Assembly (NCBI GenBank): GCA_002722515.1
Contig: PBMH01000017.1
Location: forward strand, 1 to 34,383
Source of the DNA: Alphaproteobacteria bacterium
GTDB taxonomy: Bacteria > Pseudomonadota > Alphaproteobacteria > UBA6615
Direction of reading: 5' to 3'
Length of the DNA stretch: 34,383 nucleotides
Shown: positions 11,112-16,988 of the stretch, one piece after another
Layout: each line of letters opens with the position of its first letter
Position numbering within the stretch: position 1 is the stretch's first letter
The notes under the pieces: generated by a model
Told to the model about the DNA's origin: nothing
Seen by the model: the letters and a program-made list of their open reading frames with translations, nothing else
Databases searched by the model: none
Translations under genes and position numbers: made by a program

Positions 11112-11118
11112 GCCTAAT
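11107..11118. other. 12-bp palindrome spanning two convergent stop codons
   Basis: ATTAGGCCTAAT is a perfect palindrome between the convergent alpha/beta hydrolase and mntR. It contains the TAG of the former and touches the TAA of the latter; the coding regions are 6 bases apart. There is no T-run, so a termination role is only possible, not shown. Confidence 0.35.
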
Positions 11119-11591
11119 TAGCCGTCCTTCTCGGATGTGATTTTTTCGAAAGCCGCCAGCGTTTCGGCACTGACATAGTGCTCGATGCCTTCGGCGTCGA
11201 GATCTGCATTTTCAGCGCTCACGCCGATCGCGCGCAGGAAGTTCAGGACGATTTGGTGACGCTTGCGAGACGCGTCGGCGAGCGACGTACCTTGTTCCGT
11301 TAGAAAAATTGAGCGATAGGGACGCGATGTCACCAGCCCGTCGCGCTGAAGCCGTTTAATGATTTTGTTGACCGTGGCGTGGGAAACGCCAAAGCGATGG
11401 GCTAGATCTGTGATCCGAGCCTCACCATAGGCGTTGATTAGATCGTCAATCATCTCAACATAATCCTCGGCCTTTTCGGTCTGCTGGGCGTTGCGAACCC
11501 GCTCAAATTGGGCAGCTTGACGATCCGCATCCATCATCTCTTCGGATTCGTCTGGTACCTTTATTGCGGCTGACTTGGTGTGGTCTGGCAT
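11118..11591 (-). CDS. mntR: Manganese-responsive regulator MntR (DtxR family)
   Basis: This 157-residue winged-helix repressor binds DNA when loaded with Mn(II) and shuts off Mn uptake. The helix-turn-helix is at about 57-82 (ITDLAHRFGVSHATVNKIIKRL), followed by the wing and a dimerisation domain. The six Mn ligands known from Bacillus MntR are all present: D43 and E46 (EDYVEMI), H112 (KRHQIVLNFL), and E134, E137, H138 (AEGIEHYV). It lacks the SH3-like third domain, as usual for MntR. About 35 extra N-terminal residues precede the DNA-binding domain. It is the last gene of the Mn uptake operon, and its ATG overlaps the TGA of the small ORF upstream (TGATG), so the operon is probably autoregulated. 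Confidence 0.93.
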   Translation of the reverse strand: MPDHTKSAAIKVPDESEEMMDADRQAAQFERVRNAQQTEKAEDYVEMIDDLINAYGEARITDLAHRFGVSHATVNKIIKRLQRDGLVTSRPYRSIFLTEQGTSLADASRKRHQIVLNFLRAIGVSAENADLDAEGIEHYVSAETLAAFEKITSEKDG

Positions 11592-11734
11592 CAGACTTCT
11601 ACCTGCGCGCCGTCGCTACGCACCGTCATATCTAAGACCCTCTTCATCATGGCCGGTAGGATCGCATCCGCCGCGATTCCAGGGAAGGCAACAAACTTTC
11701 GGGATTGCATGCCGACGTTCGATGTTCGCATCAT
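11591..11734 (-). CDS. Small ORF (47 aa) between Mn permease and mntR, unrecognised
   Basis: On the minus strand an ATGATG at 11734 opens a 47-codon frame that ends in TGA exactly overlapping the ATG of mntR (TGATG), an arrangement typical of translational coupling. It starts 16 bases after the permease stop, with GGGAGA overlapping that stop as a possible, somewhat distant, ribosome site. The frame fills the only gap in this operon. The peptide begins MMRTSNVGMQSRKFVAFPG and ends in a charged tail (DMTVRSDGAQVEV). It has no obvious signal peptide or membrane segment and belongs to no family I recognise. Third codon positions are mostly G/C, as in the neighbours. E. coli has an unrelated 42-aa Mn-regulon protein, MntS, so a small Mn-linked protein is plausible but unproven. 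Confidence 0.55.
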   Translation of the reverse strand: MMRTSNVGMQSRKFVAFPGIAADAILPAMMKRVLDMTVRSDGAQVEV

Positions 11735-11750
11735 GACGCTTTCTTTCTCC

Positions 11751-12665
11751 CTATTTTACACGACTGCGCTGCGGGCCATAGAGGCATGCCAGCCCGAGGA
11801 TTATCCCGGAGATGCTGGCGATCATGCCAGAAGCGCTAACGGCAGCGGGGCTGCCGAACCATAGAGGGCCGTAGCCCGCGAAGATATAACCCAGCGTTGC
11901 GGAGCTCGTTGCGAAAGCGACGGACCATGCGACTTGGTGCTCAAGTCGGTTTGTCATCAGTCTTGCGGCAGCGGGCGGGCAGATGAACATGGCGATGACG
12001 ATTATCGAGCCGACGGCATCAAATGCGGCGACAGCGGCTATCGCAGCGGTGACGACCAGGCCGAGGCCGAGACCTGCGGCCGGTATTCCGAGCGCTTGAG
12101 CGAAGCCCTCGTCGAAGGTTGAAATCTTCAGCCAGCGCCAGAAAACCAGGGTCAACGCCACTACAATGGCGCAAACCGTTGCGATGCGGACCAATTCGTC
12201 TGGCAGGGTAGCGAGTATTGCCAAGTCCAGAAGTGAGTGCCAGCCTTCGGCCTGTAACCAGACTAGGGATTCGAGGTTCCCCATGAGGGCATGTTCGACA
12301 TCGAGATGGACAGTGCTCGTATCAGTCCGGTCGAGAAGCAATACGCCCGCGGCGAACATGGTCGTGAAAATGGCGCCCATGGCGGCGCCCGGCTCGATGC
12401 CCCCCAGCCGCTTTACAACTTCGATCAGGCCGACAGCTACGAGAGCGGCGCCCGCCGCGCCGAGCAACATTGGGGCGACAGAGGTGACGCCGGTGAGCAG
12501 GAACGCGATCACGATTCCTGGTAGCACCACATGGCTGATCGCGTCACCGATGAGCGCCTGACGGCGTAGAATTAGGAAGTTTCCGGGCAGCGCACAGGCG
12601 ACTGCCGAAAGAATGCCGATCAGGACCGGGATCAGGGATAACTGAACGAATTCGGCGCCCATCAT
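11751..12665 (-). CDS. Metal ABC transporter permease (second permease, MntB/ZnuB/TroD-like)
   Basis: This 304-residue integral inner-membrane protein of the ABC-3 family has about eight to nine hydrophobic helices. It includes the conserved loop ALIGDAISHVVLPGIVIAFLL (about 34-54), LIEVVKRLGGIEPGAAMGAIFTTMFAAGVLLL and STFDEGFAQALGIPAAGLGLGL, the segment that faces the ATPase. It pairs with the adjacent permease to form a heterodimeric channel for Mn(II) or a related divalent metal. Its ATG overlaps the stop of the preceding permease (ATGA). Length is normal for the family, and a final charged PQRSRVK follows the last helix. Confidence 0.9.
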   Translation of the reverse strand: MMGAEFVQLSLIPVLIGILSAVACALPGNFLILRRQALIGDAISHVVLPGIVIAFLLTGVTSVAPMLLGAAGAALVAVGLIEVVKRLGGIEPGAAMGAIFTTMFAAGVLLLDRTDTSTVHLDVEHALMGNLESLVWLQAEGWHSLLDLAILATLPDELVRIATVCAIVVALTLVFWRWLKISTFDEGFAQALGIPAAGLGLGLVVTAAIAAVAAFDAVGSIIVIAMFICPPAAARLMTNRLEHQVAWSVAFATSSATLGYIFAGYGPLWFGSPAAVSASGMIASISGIILGLACLYGPQRSRVK

Positions 12666-13876
12666 TCAGTCCTTGCGGTCACCGGTGGCCCGAGTTGGTG
12701 ATCGAGTTCTGCGATTTCGTCGGCTGTGAAAACATCTTCAATTGGCGTTAGTCCATCATATCGCCCAGTCAGTCCGGTATCCTGATAAATCTCTCGCGCC
12801 ACGTCCCAGCGACGTTCGTCGCGAGCAATTTTAGCGGCCTGTGCGCGCCCGGCATCGGTTGGCACCCCATCTGGGCGCACCAATCCCTCCCGGGTAAGAA
12901 GGCGGAGTGTGTAAGCCTCGCGAATGGGGTGGTGGGCGGCTAGCGCGAGCAACCCCTGGCGCCTATGCACTCGGGCCTGAAAGCCGCGGTGTCGGAATAG
13001 CGTAACGAGAACGCCGCGGTCCGGTGCAAACAGCAGTGAGAAAACGAAAATCCCGGCCGCCACGAGAACAATGATCGGGCCAGTCGGCATGGCTGGCGCT
13101 GATGCTGATAGGACAGCCCCGAGATATCCTGATGCGCCGCCAATACAGCCGGCGATCCAGATCATTTTGGTCGATCGATCTGTCCAGAATCGTGCGGCGA
13201 CCGCCGGGATAATAAGCATCGCGACGATCAAGATGAGGCCCACCAGCTTGAGCCCAATAACCGTAACGGATAGCACGAGGCCCATCATCAGGAGGTCTAT
13301 CCGTCTCACATCATAGCCGAGTGTCATGGCATAGTCGCTATCGAACGCTACTATGGTCATCGGTCGGCGCATGAGCCAGGTCACGAGTACGGCTAACGAG
13401 CCTCCAACGGCGATCAAGAGGGCGTCTTGGAAAAGCATTCCGGCGGTCGACCCGAGAAGGAAACCCTCAAGTCCTGCTTGCCTGCCGGCACTCATTCCCT
13501 GAATGACCGTTAGAAAAACAATACCGGCCCCGAAAAAGGTTCCGAGAATCGCTCCGATGGCTGCGTCTTCTGTAAGCCGGGTGCGGCGGCTTATCCATTC
13601 TATTAACAGCAGCCCGGTCCAGGCCGTCAGAGCAGACCCAGCAATGAGACCCAAAAGGCTTCGGCCGTCGCCGCCAAAAGTAACCATTAAGATGAATGCG
13701 AGGCCGATGCCGGGTAGCGTTGCGTGGGCGACTGCATCTGAAATCAATGCGCGCTTTCGTAGGAAGGGAAATGTACCTGATGCGCCTGCCGCGAAGCCGA
13801 GAACCCCGGCACCGATCGCGACCAAGGTAGCGTTGTAGCCGGCCTGCAGGAAAAACGCCTCGACGAATAGGCTCAA
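12662..13876 (-). CDS. Metal ABC transporter permease with repressor-like C-terminal domain (TroC-like)
   Basis: This 404-residue protein has an ABC-3 permease domain (about 15-290) with RKRALISDAVAHATLPGIGLAFIL and RLTEDAAIGAILGTFFGAGIVFL, then an extra cytoplasmic domain of about 105 residues. That extension (from HRRQGLLALAAHHPIREAYTL through DGVPTDAGRAQAAKIARDERRWDVAREIY to IEDVFTADEIAELDHQL) resembles the winged helix plus dimerisation helices of DtxR/MntR proteins. Comparable tails occur on TroC-type permeases. The Mn-ligand histidines of MntR are not kept (H becomes E or D). Translation starts at a TTG whose last bases overlap the ATPase stop (TTGA), implying coupling. It partners the next permease in the Mn uptake system. 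Confidence 0.9.
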   Translation of the reverse strand: MSLFVEAFFLQAGYNATLVAIGAGVLGFAAGASGTFPFLRKRALISDAVAHATLPGIGLAFILMVTFGGDGRSLLGLIAGSALTAWTGLLLIEWISRRTRLTEDAAIGAILGTFFGAGIVFLTVIQGMSAGRQAGLEGFLLGSTAGMLFQDALLIAVGGSLAVLVTWLMRRPMTIVAFDSDYAMTLGYDVRRIDLLMMGLVLSVTVIGLKLVGLILIVAMLIIPAVAARFWTDRSTKMIWIAGCIGGASGYLGAVLSASAPAMPTGPIIVLVAAGIFVFSLLFAPDRGVLVTLFRHRGFQARVHRRQGLLALAAHHPIREAYTLRLLTREGLVRPDGVPTDAGRAQAAKIARDERRWDVAREIYQDTGLTGRYDGLTPIEDVFTADEIAELDHQLGPPVTARTE

Positions 13877-14700
13877 TGTCCGTCGTCCATTATAGCTAAT
13901 TCGCTGAGATGGGTGGTAGCTAGTCGCCCGCCAAACGTTGCCTGCAGGTTTTCTGTCGTGAACGTCGTCGCGACCGGCCCCTCGGCGATGCGCCGCACGT
14001 TGACCAACAGTATACGGTCGAAATAGTCACGTATCGTAGCGAGGTCATGGTGAACCGCGACGACGGTTTTACCATCTTTTCTAAGCAATTTTAGTACCCC
14101 GATGATCGCCCGCTCCGTCGCGGCATCGACGCCTGCAAATGGCTCGTCGAGAAGGAGAAGATCAGCGTCCTGCGCCAGTGCACGGGCGAGAAACACGCGT
14201 TGTCGCTGTCCGCCCGAGATCTGCCCAATTTGACGATTGGCAAAGTCGGCGAGGCCGACGCGATCAAGGCACTCAAGAGCTTGGGCCCGCCCCTGGCCAG
14301 AGAGCCGCCCGAGCAGTCCAAGTTTGCGATAGAGTCCCATCTGAACGACATCTAGGACCGTTGTTGGAAAGTCCCAGTCGACGCTTGCGCTCTGCGGTAC
14401 GTAGCCGATGCGCGCGCGTGCGTTTCGTAGCGTATCTCCGAAGACGTATACCTCGCCAGACAGGCGCGGAATTACACCCAGCGCGGCCTTCAGGAGAGTT
14501 GACTTGCCGGCTCCATTTGGGCCGACAATGGCCGAAATTTCCCCAGTACTGAAGGCGGCATCAACGGAGAAAACCGCAGGCTTCTCGCTATAGGAAACCG
14601 TCAGCCCATGTATGGCGAGAGCCGCGTCGCGTGGCGCACGCGCTGGACCGACGGCGTGGCCCAGGTCGGATACGATCGCAGGTTTTATTGTTGGAGACAT
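13873..14700 (-). CDS. Metal ABC transporter ATP-binding protein (TroB/SitB/MntA-like)
   Basis: This 275-residue ABC ATPase powers the Mn-type importer at the cytoplasmic face. Walker A is GPNGAGKST at 60-68, the Q-loop is in YVPQSASVDWDFP (100-112), the signature is SGGQRQR (162-168), Walker B is LLLLDEP (181-187) and the H-loop is AVHHD (about 214-218). The DWDFPTTVLDVVQMG segment is typical of Mn/Zn family ATPases. About 25 residues precede the fold. AAGGA lies 7 bases before the ATG. It begins 10 bases after the binding-protein stop and overlaps the first permease by 4 bases. Confidence 0.93.
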   Translation of the reverse strand: MSPTIKPAIVSDLGHAVGPARAPRDAALAIHGLTVSYSEKPAVFSVDAAFSTGEISAIVGPNGAGKSTLLKAALGVIPRLSGEVYVFGDTLRNARARIGYVPQSASVDWDFPTTVLDVVQMGLYRKLGLLGRLSGQGRAQALECLDRVGLADFANRQIGQISGGQRQRVFLARALAQDADLLLLDEPFAGVDAATERAIIGVLKLLRKDGKTVVAVHHDLATIRDYFDRILLVNVRRIAEGPVATTFTTENLQATFGGRLATTHLSELAIMDDGH

Positions 14701-14710
14701 AACCGATCCT

Positions 14711-15667
14711 TCAGTTTAGGAAGCCTTGCATGCCGGTAACCGGCGCTTGGCCACCCATTGCGCTTGTGATGGCCGTTGCATTGTGTTCAATCATTCCGAT
14801 GTAGGTGCCTTCGTAGGTACCCGGCTCGCCCATTGCATCGGAATATAGCTCTCCTCCGATGATCACTTTGTGACCGCGTGCAGCTGCACCCTCAATCAGT
14901 GCACGGATGCTACGATTCGATGCCGAGGTCTCAACGAAGACTGCTCGTATGTTGCGCTCAACCAGCAGGTCGACAAGCTCGGAGATACGCCGCAGGCCAG
15001 TTTCCGATTCGGTCGAGATGCCCTGTATGCCCACGACCTCGAACCCGTGTGCCCGGCCGAAATAGCTGAACGCATCATGAGAGGAAACGACAACTCGGCT
15101 TTCGTTCGGAACCGTTGACAGCGCCGCACTGGCGAAGTTGGCGAGCTTTTCCAGTTGTAAGAGATAGGCTTCGGTATTTGCGCAAAACTCTTCTTTACCC
15201 GCGGGGTGCGTATCAATTAGAGAATCGCGGACGTTGATAACAACGCGTGACCAGAGTCTCGGGTCCATCCAGAGGTGCGGATCGAAGCGGTTTGCATAGT
15301 CTTCGGAACCGATTAGCAGGTCCTGCGGCACGTTTTCGGCCACGGCTACGACCTTGTTTTTGACAGCCAGATCGAGAAGAAAATCCTCGAGCTGTGCCTC
15401 TAGATAGAGGCCGTTCCAAAGCACCAAGTCAGCATTCGCCATAGCCGCGATGTCAGAACGTGTCTGCCGATAGGCGTGCGGATCCACGCCCGGACCCATA
15501 AGCGCCTGCACCTCGATCAGGTTTCCTCCGATCCGGGAGGCAGCGGCGGCAATCATGCTGGTGGTGGTGACGACCTTCAATCGTTCCAATGCCAACGCAG
15601 AGCCCATGGGCAGATAGAAGGCGAATGCAGCCAGTACGGCGATCAATCTTCTCTTGGTTAGGCTCAA
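14711..15667 (-). CDS. Periplasmic metal-binding protein of Mn/Zn ABC transporter (TroA-like)
   Basis: This 318-residue cluster A-I solute-binding protein starts with a Sec signal (KRR then LIAVLAAFAFYLPMGSALA, cleavage near 26). Metal ligands by family alignment are H64 (GVDPHAY), H131 (FDPHLWMD), H197 (SSHDAFSYFGRAHG) and D277 (GGELYSDAMG). That His-His-His-Asp set is as in Treponema TroA, whereas PsaA/SitA proteins have Glu in third place. There is no His-rich loop as in ZnuA. Mn is favoured because the operon encodes MntR, but Zn cannot be excluded from ligands alone. The start is TTG at 15667: a GGAG lies 8 bases upstream, and only this start gives the signal peptide its positive N-terminus. 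Confidence 0.92.
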   Translation of the reverse strand: MSLTKRRLIAVLAAFAFYLPMGSALALERLKVVTTTSMIAAAASRIGGNLIEVQALMGPGVDPHAYRQTRSDIAAMANADLVLWNGLYLEAQLEDFLLDLAVKNKVVAVAENVPQDLLIGSEDYANRFDPHLWMDPRLWSRVVINVRDSLIDTHPAGKEEFCANTEAYLLQLEKLANFASAALSTVPNESRVVVSSHDAFSYFGRAHGFEVVGIQGISTESETGLRRISELVDLLVERNIRAVFVETSASNRSIRALIEGAAARGHKVIIGGELYSDAMGEPGTYEGTYIGMIEHNATAITSAMGGQAPVTGMQGFLN

Positions 15668-15724
15668 ATAATTTACTCCGGCCGGACTTATTCATTGCCG
15701 GCGCCACCGGCATCCACATGCGGT

Positions 15725-15753
15725 TTTATATAGCTGAATAACCTTACGGTCAA
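15725..15753 (-). promoter_or_regulatory. Sigma-70-type promoter of the Mn uptake operon
   Basis: On the minus strand TTGACC (15753-15748) and TATAAA (15730-15725) are separated by exactly 17 bases. Each hexamer matches consensus at 5 of 6 positions. Transcription would start near 15717, giving a leader of about 50 bases before the TTG start of the binding protein. Confidence 0.7.
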
Positions 15754-15775
15754 AATTGCATGTGTATATAAAAAC

Positions 15776-15791
15776 TGTAGCCATAGCTACA
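15776..15791. promoter_or_regulatory. MntR-box-like operator upstream of Mn operon
   Basis: TGTAGC-CATA-GCTACA is a perfect 6+6 inverted repeat with a 4-base centre. The known enterobacterial MntR box has ACATAGC-N4-GCTATGT, so the TAGC-N4-GCTA core and spacing agree. It lies 22 bases upstream of the -35 of the proposed promoter and would overlap a second, weaker promoter using TATATA at 15765-15770. MntR is the last gene of the operon this site precedes. Confidence 0.6.
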
Positions 15792-15995
15792 TCATGCCCG
15801 CCCCGAGCCAACAGTTGGCCAAGAAGCCCTAGACAAAAGTGAAGATGGCCAGCCCATTAGCTGAGCAGAATCGAACGAGTTTATGGTGGGTTAGCTTCGG
15901 TTTCGGCTCAATCTTTTCGAGACATCCGAAGATTGGATAAGACGTACTGCAGGCAAGATTTCCGGCGAGGTAGAGCCTGACCGTCTGCTAATGAC

Positions 15996-16988
15996 TCACA
16001 CTTTGGCCGGTATACCGCTTGCGGCAGATTTCGCGATCGCCTCGTGGATTGCCGCCGTATGGGCCATCTCGTCGGGGCTGAAGAGGTAGGTTTCCTTACC
16101 CTCGCATGCTGCAGCGAAATTCTCGTCGTTGGCGCGAATCTGGGAAATGATGTCACGGGCAGGCAACTCAATCTCGTTTACAGAACCTCCGCCCTCCTCG
16201 ACTGTACCCGCCCCGAAACAGGTAGTGATCTTAGTCGTATCCATCCAGCCATTAGCCCGGGCCCAGCCCTTTGACCCCATTACATGCAAGTGCATGGTGG
16301 CAGGTGTCGTCATAAGGTTGGCAAGGTAGCCTGTTATTCCGCTTTTGAATTTTACTAGAACGGAACCAACGTCGTTTTCCAACGACTGGGTTACAATTTG
16401 TCCGTAGACTTCGCGCATTGGCCCACCATACCAGCACATGATGTCAATCATGTGTGCGCCGAAATGAACGATCCCGCCGGTCGGGGCCTCAGCCGTGGCG
16501 CGCCGCCAGCCCTCGACGCCGATCTGGCCTTGGTGGCTGAGGTTAGCCTCAATATGATGGATGTCGCCGAGGTCGCCTGTCCCGATAATCCGCTTGATTT
16601 CCTGTATGGCTGGACCATAGCGGTAATTGTGGCCGATGCCTAAGGTGAGCCCGGACGCTTTCATCGCGTTTGCAGCGCGTTCACCGTCGGCCTTATTGAG
16701 TGCAAAGGGTTTCTCGGTTAGCACATGCTTGCCGGCTGCGGCGCCAGCTACGATCTGGTCGCTGTGTTGAGAATGGGGTGTAACCAGCACCACAGCATCG
16801 ATATCGGGATCATTCAGTGCGTCTTCGTAATGTGCGGTCAGTTTCAGATCATGTGTGTCGCAAAACCCTTGGACATTTGCGGGTGCAAGGTCGACCGCTC
16901 GAGTAAACTGGATCTTTTCGGATCCCCTGGACGCCGCCACATGGTTTTGGCCCCACCAGCCTAGGCCAACGATTGCTGCATTGATCAT
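15996..16988 (-). CDS. Gfo/Idh/MocA family oxidoreductase
   Basis: This 330-residue NAD(P)-dependent dehydrogenase has an N-terminal Rossmann domain (AIVGLGWWGQNH, 5-16), the family EKP motif (92-94, in LTEKPFALNKA) and a C-terminal sheet domain with GGIVHFGAHMIDIMCWY containing the catalytic-type His/Asp. The family oxidises or reduces sugars, inositols and related polyols. The frame is open to 17075, but ATG 16988 is chosen because AGGA lies about 9 bases upstream and MINAAIVGLG is the natural start of the fold. It follows its paralogue by 37 bases and is the second gene of that operon. Confidence 0.9.
   Translation of the reverse strand: MINAAIVGLGWWGQNHVAASRGSEKIQFTRAVDLAPANVQGFCDTHDLKLTAHYEDALNDPDIDAVVLVTPHSQHSDQIVAGAAAGKHVLTEKPFALNKADGERAANAMKASGLTLGIGHNYRYGPAIQEIKRIIGTGDLGDIHHIEANLSHQGQIGVEGWRRATAEAPTGGIVHFGAHMIDIMCWYGGPMREVYGQIVTQSLENDVGSVLVKFKSGITGYLANLMTTPATMHLHVMGSKGWARANGWMDTTKITTCFGAGTVEEGGGSVNEIELPARDIISQIRANDENFAAACEGKETYLFSPDEMAHTAAIHEAIAKSAASGIPAKV

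Follow-up and report, generated by a model that had tools for sequence, protein, structure and literature searches.

Descent of the 47-codon frame between the second ABC permease gene and mntR from the 3' end of a ZIP transporter gene is well supported by sequence comparison, and the frame does not appear to be a new kind of Mn protein. It was studied in a window of 34,383 nucleotides (the whole stretch of DNA that was analysed) and in relatives from the same genus and family. This ZIP stub was left when an ABC cassette replaced the older transporter gene, and has probably persisted as a translational bridge to mntR. A broader reading is offered more tentatively: the remnant of a displaced Mn/Zn transporter may have been co-opted as a bridge frame that ties the Mn regulator, at the level of translation, to whichever transporter occupies the operon and possibly also acts as a peptide.

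The 47-codon frame and its operon

The frame lies on the minus strand at 11591..11734, from an ATG at 11734 to a TGA at 11593-11591, and its translation is MMRTSNVGMQSRKFVAFPGIAADAILPAMMKRVLDMTVRSDGAQVEV. The earlier note had left the strand unstated and was otherwise accurate in its description. A 47-codon ATG-to-TGA frame exists at this place, it starts 16 nt after the permease stop (TAG at 11753-11751), and its TGA overlaps the mntR ATG in the sequence TGATG (11589..11593, minus strand). Codon choice, which had been said to look like that of the neighbours, gave 0.23 bit per codon for the stub versus 0.20-0.36 for the operon genes; among the 115 ATG frames of 35-70 aa that the window contains, 6 reached 0.23. 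A 7.5-kb stretch of the window is overlapped by 54 frames of at least 40 aa. Because open frames of this size are common here, the mere existence of the 47-codon frame proves nothing; chance is exceeded by where it lies, by its homology to the ZIP 3' end and by its conserved core. Searches of the Pfam and NCBIfam families with the 47 aa returned nothing of weight.

The upstream neighbours of the stub are a complete metal ABC operon, also on the minus strand. It consists of a ZnuA-type substrate-binding protein (14711..15667; PF01297, E 2e-74), a Mn/Fe-type ABC ATPase (13873..14700; PF00005, with MntA as the best NCBIfam match, below its cut-off) and two ABC-3 metal permeases, permease 1 (12662..13876; PF00950, E 2e-53, residues 20-283 of 404) and permease 2 (11751..12665; PF00950, E 7e-40). 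On the other side of the stub, mntR (11118..11591, minus strand) encodes a 157-aa protein of the DtxR/MntR family (NCBIfam PRK11050 MntR, 206 bits with a cut-off of 153; Pfam PF01325 and PF02742). An N-terminal extension of MntR into the stub was considered and rejected, as the mntR frame of the window hits a TAG stop inside the stub.

Two further observations were made in this operon. Permease 1 has a C-terminal extension of ~120 aa, and the tail past about residue 283 (QGLLALAAHHPIREAYTLRLLTREGLV...) is without a convincing Pfam match and resembles a tail of the winged-helix/DtxR type. Upstream of the binding protein, where two of the congeners (G004 and G005) have a GST gene, the window has ~330 bp without one (15667-15996).

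Two arrangements of the locus

The arrangements of the locus were found by searching for MntR across the genus and family and then reading the sequence upstream. In the ZIP-type order, a ZIP-like gene of ~390 aa stands directly before mntR; this order was seen in two genomes of the same genus (G002 and G006) and in nine family genomes. A multicopper oxidase (identity tested in G002) precedes the ZIP-like gene, and in each of the 11 ZIP-type genomes the oxidase gene ends at the ZIP start or overlaps it. In the ABC-type order, the ABC cassette occupies the ZIP site before mntR. This order was found in the window's genome (G000), G001, G004 and G005, four congeners that carry the stub and are all apparently drafts. 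Within the genus the ZIP gene and the ABC permease are mutually exclusive. The flanks are alike in both types as far as the contigs reach, with Gfo/Idh oxidoreductases on one side and an alpha/beta hydrolase and a quinone oxidoreductase on the other. In another genome of the genus (G003) mntR, ABC permease 2 and the ZIP parent were all not found, an absence that is uncertain because this assembly is 87% complete. Between the hydrolase and mntR of G004 (L002 669-1047) there is a palindromic-looking repeat whose translation reads MAGLDPAIH, and which we take to resemble the dispersed repeats of alphaproteobacteria.

The parent gene is a divergent relative of the ZIP family, under the Pfam cut-off at full length (PF02535, E ~2e-3, 18 bits; gathering score 35.1). 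The HNFGEG / HNLTEG motifs carried by the G002 and G006 parents, the similarity to the ZupT model PRK04201 (E ~2e-10, 40 bits; cut-off 252) and a weak alignment with PDB entry 7z6m (E 0.93) point to a ZIP fold.

Homology of the stub to the ZIP 3' end

A protein search of 60 relatives gave one significant match outside the window's genome. This was the stub of G004 (E 2.2e-4, 46% identity), which sits likewise between permease and mntR. At the DNA level, the window stub and the G002 ZIP gene shared a 40-bp alignment of 82% identity with a score of 45, and none of 1000 dinucleotide shuffles did as well (scores of 31 or less). The stubs of G004, G005 and G001 scored 51, 52 and 51 against the same gene, with shuffle maxima of 31-33. 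The match of the window stub to the G006 ZIP gene was weaker (score 35, equalled by 1 of 1000 shuffles). The stub corresponds to the congener ZIP 3' end in position and strand, and frame and orientation relative to mntR agree. The ends of the proteins may also be compared: the G004 stub finishes in GAFPVHV and the G002 ZIP in TAFLVQI, its C-terminus reading WGAIFFGIAAGAILQVMVEV...AFLVQI. Against a ZIP protein profile the window stub alone scored 1.2 bits, which is not significant (shuffles reach 6.7), so its link to ZIP was drawn from its DNA, its position and the intermediate forms in G004 and G005.

The TGATG junction before mntR was present in every ABC-type genome (G000, G004, G005 and G001). 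It is also found between the full-length ZIP gene and mntR of G002, and since that pair is intact the overlap most likely predates the stub. In all ZIP-type genomes the stop-to-start junction with mntR lies between -1 and +12 nt. At the other end, TGATGCGCA is common to the start of the G004 stub and the G002 ZIP; we considered from this very short match whether the stub still begins at the start codon of the ZIP gene, and found it too short to decide.

Compared with the ZIP / ZupT family (PF02535), the stub matches the final portion of the ZIP-like gene found at the same locus in congeners. It retains ~15 recognisable codons, the HNxxEG metal-binding helices are absent from the 47 aa, and it cannot transport metal.

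Replacement by the ABC cassette

The permease-2 genes of the four stub genomes formed one clade with a support of 0.99. When 80 loci with the nearest homologous permeases were inspected, a single one had an adjacent mntR downstream, and this was G004 itself. Given one permease clade and cassette homologues elsewhere that have no adjacent mntR, a single replacement event is the simplest history. In the tree of the flanks, monophyly of the four genomes was not rejected (AU 0.16) and was not the best tree. The relatives of the cassette are Roseibium- and Rhodobacteraceae-like, and the donor was placed no more finely than this.

The ancestral order in the family is multicopper oxidase, ZIP-like transporter and mntR. 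A SitABCD/ZnuA-type ABC cassette then displaced the oxidase together with the greater part of the ZIP gene in the lineage that includes the window and its three congeners. The leftover stub is still in the ZIP frame, retains a portion of one transmembrane segment and ends at the ZIP stop within TGATG.

Conservation of the stub and alternative explanations

The earlier note had foreseen that a frame without conservation in relatives of the same gene order would speak against its proposal. A homologous frame was found in all four permease-mntR genomes, intact in three of them. The conserved part is a 45-bp core (11642..11686, minus strand) encoding F-x-G-I-A-x-x-A-[IM]-[LV]-x-x-M, which is homologous to the penultimate transmembrane segment of ZIP. 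Fourfold-degenerate sites of shared genes are 44-62% identical between the four stub genomes, so the stub is old, and without constraint it should be largely scrambled. In the core, 27 of 45 columns are invariant in the four stubs. Under a neutral model with columns drawn from 638 real fourfold sites, the best 45-column stretch of 160 had 15.8 invariant columns on average (scan-corrected P 4e-5). The core is thus kept better than neutral, and the stub is not simply decaying.

These data bear on the possibility that the stub is a plain decaying pseudogene, a roleless leftover that is open by chance in three of the four species. We consider this unlikely, though it is the alternative that survives best. 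Beyond the core, nothing except the start region and TGATG can be recognised, and the three intact stubs differ in length (47, 54 and 56 aa), as decay would have it. Hydrophobicity has gone down from 2.17 to 1.1-1.5 in the stubs, which is under the usual transmembrane level. The frame is broken in G001, and in pairwise simulations the similarity of G004 to G005 and to G001 was no more than neutral (P 0.2), whereas the pairs with the window gave P values of 0.004, 0.002 and 0/2000. Against decay stand the excess of invariant columns in the core and the ribosome site at the stub start. The three stubs are open despite in-frame length differences, for which a rough neutral probability, calculated post hoc, is 0.008.

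A functional small peptide, in which the remnant ZIP helix acts as a modulator of the new permease or of some other metal transporter, is less likely again. By codon position, 9/15, 11/15 and 7/15 of the core columns are invariant in the four stubs; the first two positions are above neutral (P = 0.0045 and P = 0.0001) and the third is not significantly so (P = 0.06). These counts lean towards coding constraint, but the contrast between positions is weak, and the replacements include nonconservative ones (G to D, A to P, Q to P/H/R). A spacing of 16 codons from ATG to core is shared by G000 (from its second ATG), G004 and G005, which would suit a peptide. MntS of E. coli has reportedly been proposed to derive from the signal peptide of SitA, a precedent for a Mn small protein made from a transporter remnant and, if right, a parallel case of such a remnant retained beside a Mn regulon. 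In G001, however, the core is in a different phase from the upstream ATG, which overlaps the permease stop (L033 7403-7530), and this argues against an essential peptide; an assembly error is possible there, as this genome is a draft with 7% contamination. The proposal in the earlier note of an unrecognised Mn small protein is weakened accordingly: the frame stands, as a ZIP remnant of few recognisable codons that has lost transmembrane-level hydrophobicity and whose core cannot be reached in frame from the upstream ATG in one species out of four.

It is improbable that the core is a DNA or RNA element (a promoter, operator or hairpin serving mntR) whose location within the stub is coincidental. 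Retention of the core even in G001, where the frame is lost, and a hairpin predicted in three stubs would fit such an element. A repeated operator was rejected, since the motif does not recur and has a single site in the window. An RNA hairpin was likewise not significant: folding energies were ordinary except in G005 (z -2.8), and covariation was within the range of shuffles (107/500). Nor were the synonymous sites of the same stretch unusually conserved in ZIP genes of the wider family, where no clear synonymous constraint was seen and the same-genus pair alone was borderline.

That the frame is an independent, unrelated small Mn protein of the MntS type is very improbable, for although it sits in a Mn operon and is of similar length (47 versus 42 aa), its DNA shows homology to the 3' end of ZIP at the orthologous position, it has no family match and it occurs in only four genomes of one genus. 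E. coli MntS is a 42-aa member of the MntR regulon that is reported to act with the exporter MntP (PMC4361602). Both are short frames in a Mn regulon context; the earlier note had seen no similarity between the two, their origins differ, and the ZIP descent of the stub makes membership in MntS unlikely.

The stub as a probable bridge to mntR

The reading that we favour, a ZIP stub persisting as a translational bridge, draws on the signals at its two ends. The permease-2 stop and the 16-nt spacer before the stub ATG (11735..11753, minus strand) include a Shine-Dalgarno-like GGGAGA. The anti-SD duplex at the stub start was -9.0, -12.2 and -10.3 kcal/mol in G000, G004 and G005, versus -4.6, -5.4 and -5.4 kcal/mol at the mntR start of the same genomes. 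The stub of G001 has a weak start site (-5.5). The ribosome site is thus strong at the stub start in three of four genomes, and weaker at the mntR start in all four. Without the bridge, the distance from the permease stop to mntR is about 120 to 170 nt. In G001 a 40-codon frame in another phase, from the ATG at the permease stop, ends inside mntR and so links the permease stop to the mntR start.

Translational coupling has been shown experimentally for TGATG pairs (PMC6728339), and it is nearly abolished at gaps of ~20 nt (PMC10666635). The stub and mntR resemble these coupled overlapping pairs in their one-base TGATG overlap, within the -1 or -4 nt and single transcript direction of termination-reinitiation pairs, and in the weak downstream ribosome site. 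They differ in that the upstream partner is apparently a gene remnant without a product of its own, and that coupling is here deduced from sequence. Short frames encoding nonsense peptides can boost translation of a downstream gene (PMC13255528), and the stub would be like these synthetic upstream frames in that its value lies in delivering ribosomes, not in the peptide. Those frames were engineered with a strong ribosome site beside the stop codon, whereas in the stub the strong site is at the start and the site before mntR is weak.

Ribosomes would load at the Shine-Dalgarno site of the stub just behind the permease and translate its 46-56 codons. On reaching TGATG they would terminate and reinitiate at mntR, which has a weak ribosome site of its own. 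MntR output would thereby be tied to translation of the transporter operon, with any effect of the peptide itself secondary. We infer translation of the stub, the coupling and its benefit from these signals. Coupling alone does not account for the better-kept core, and a residual peptide role or a nucleotide element is possible in addition. The other suggestion in the earlier note, that the frame couples translation of mntR to that of its neighbours upstream, has the best support among the functional readings, with the amendment that TGATG was inherited from a full-length ZIP-mntR pair and was not made for the small frame.

If so, a short frame that looks conserved within an operon can turn out to be the stump of a gene, retained for its start and stop signals and not for its product, which is a caution for small-protein discovery resting on overlap and codon use. 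The locus would also represent a natural experiment, in which either of two transporters stands upstream of the same regulator and the bridge was retained across the exchange.
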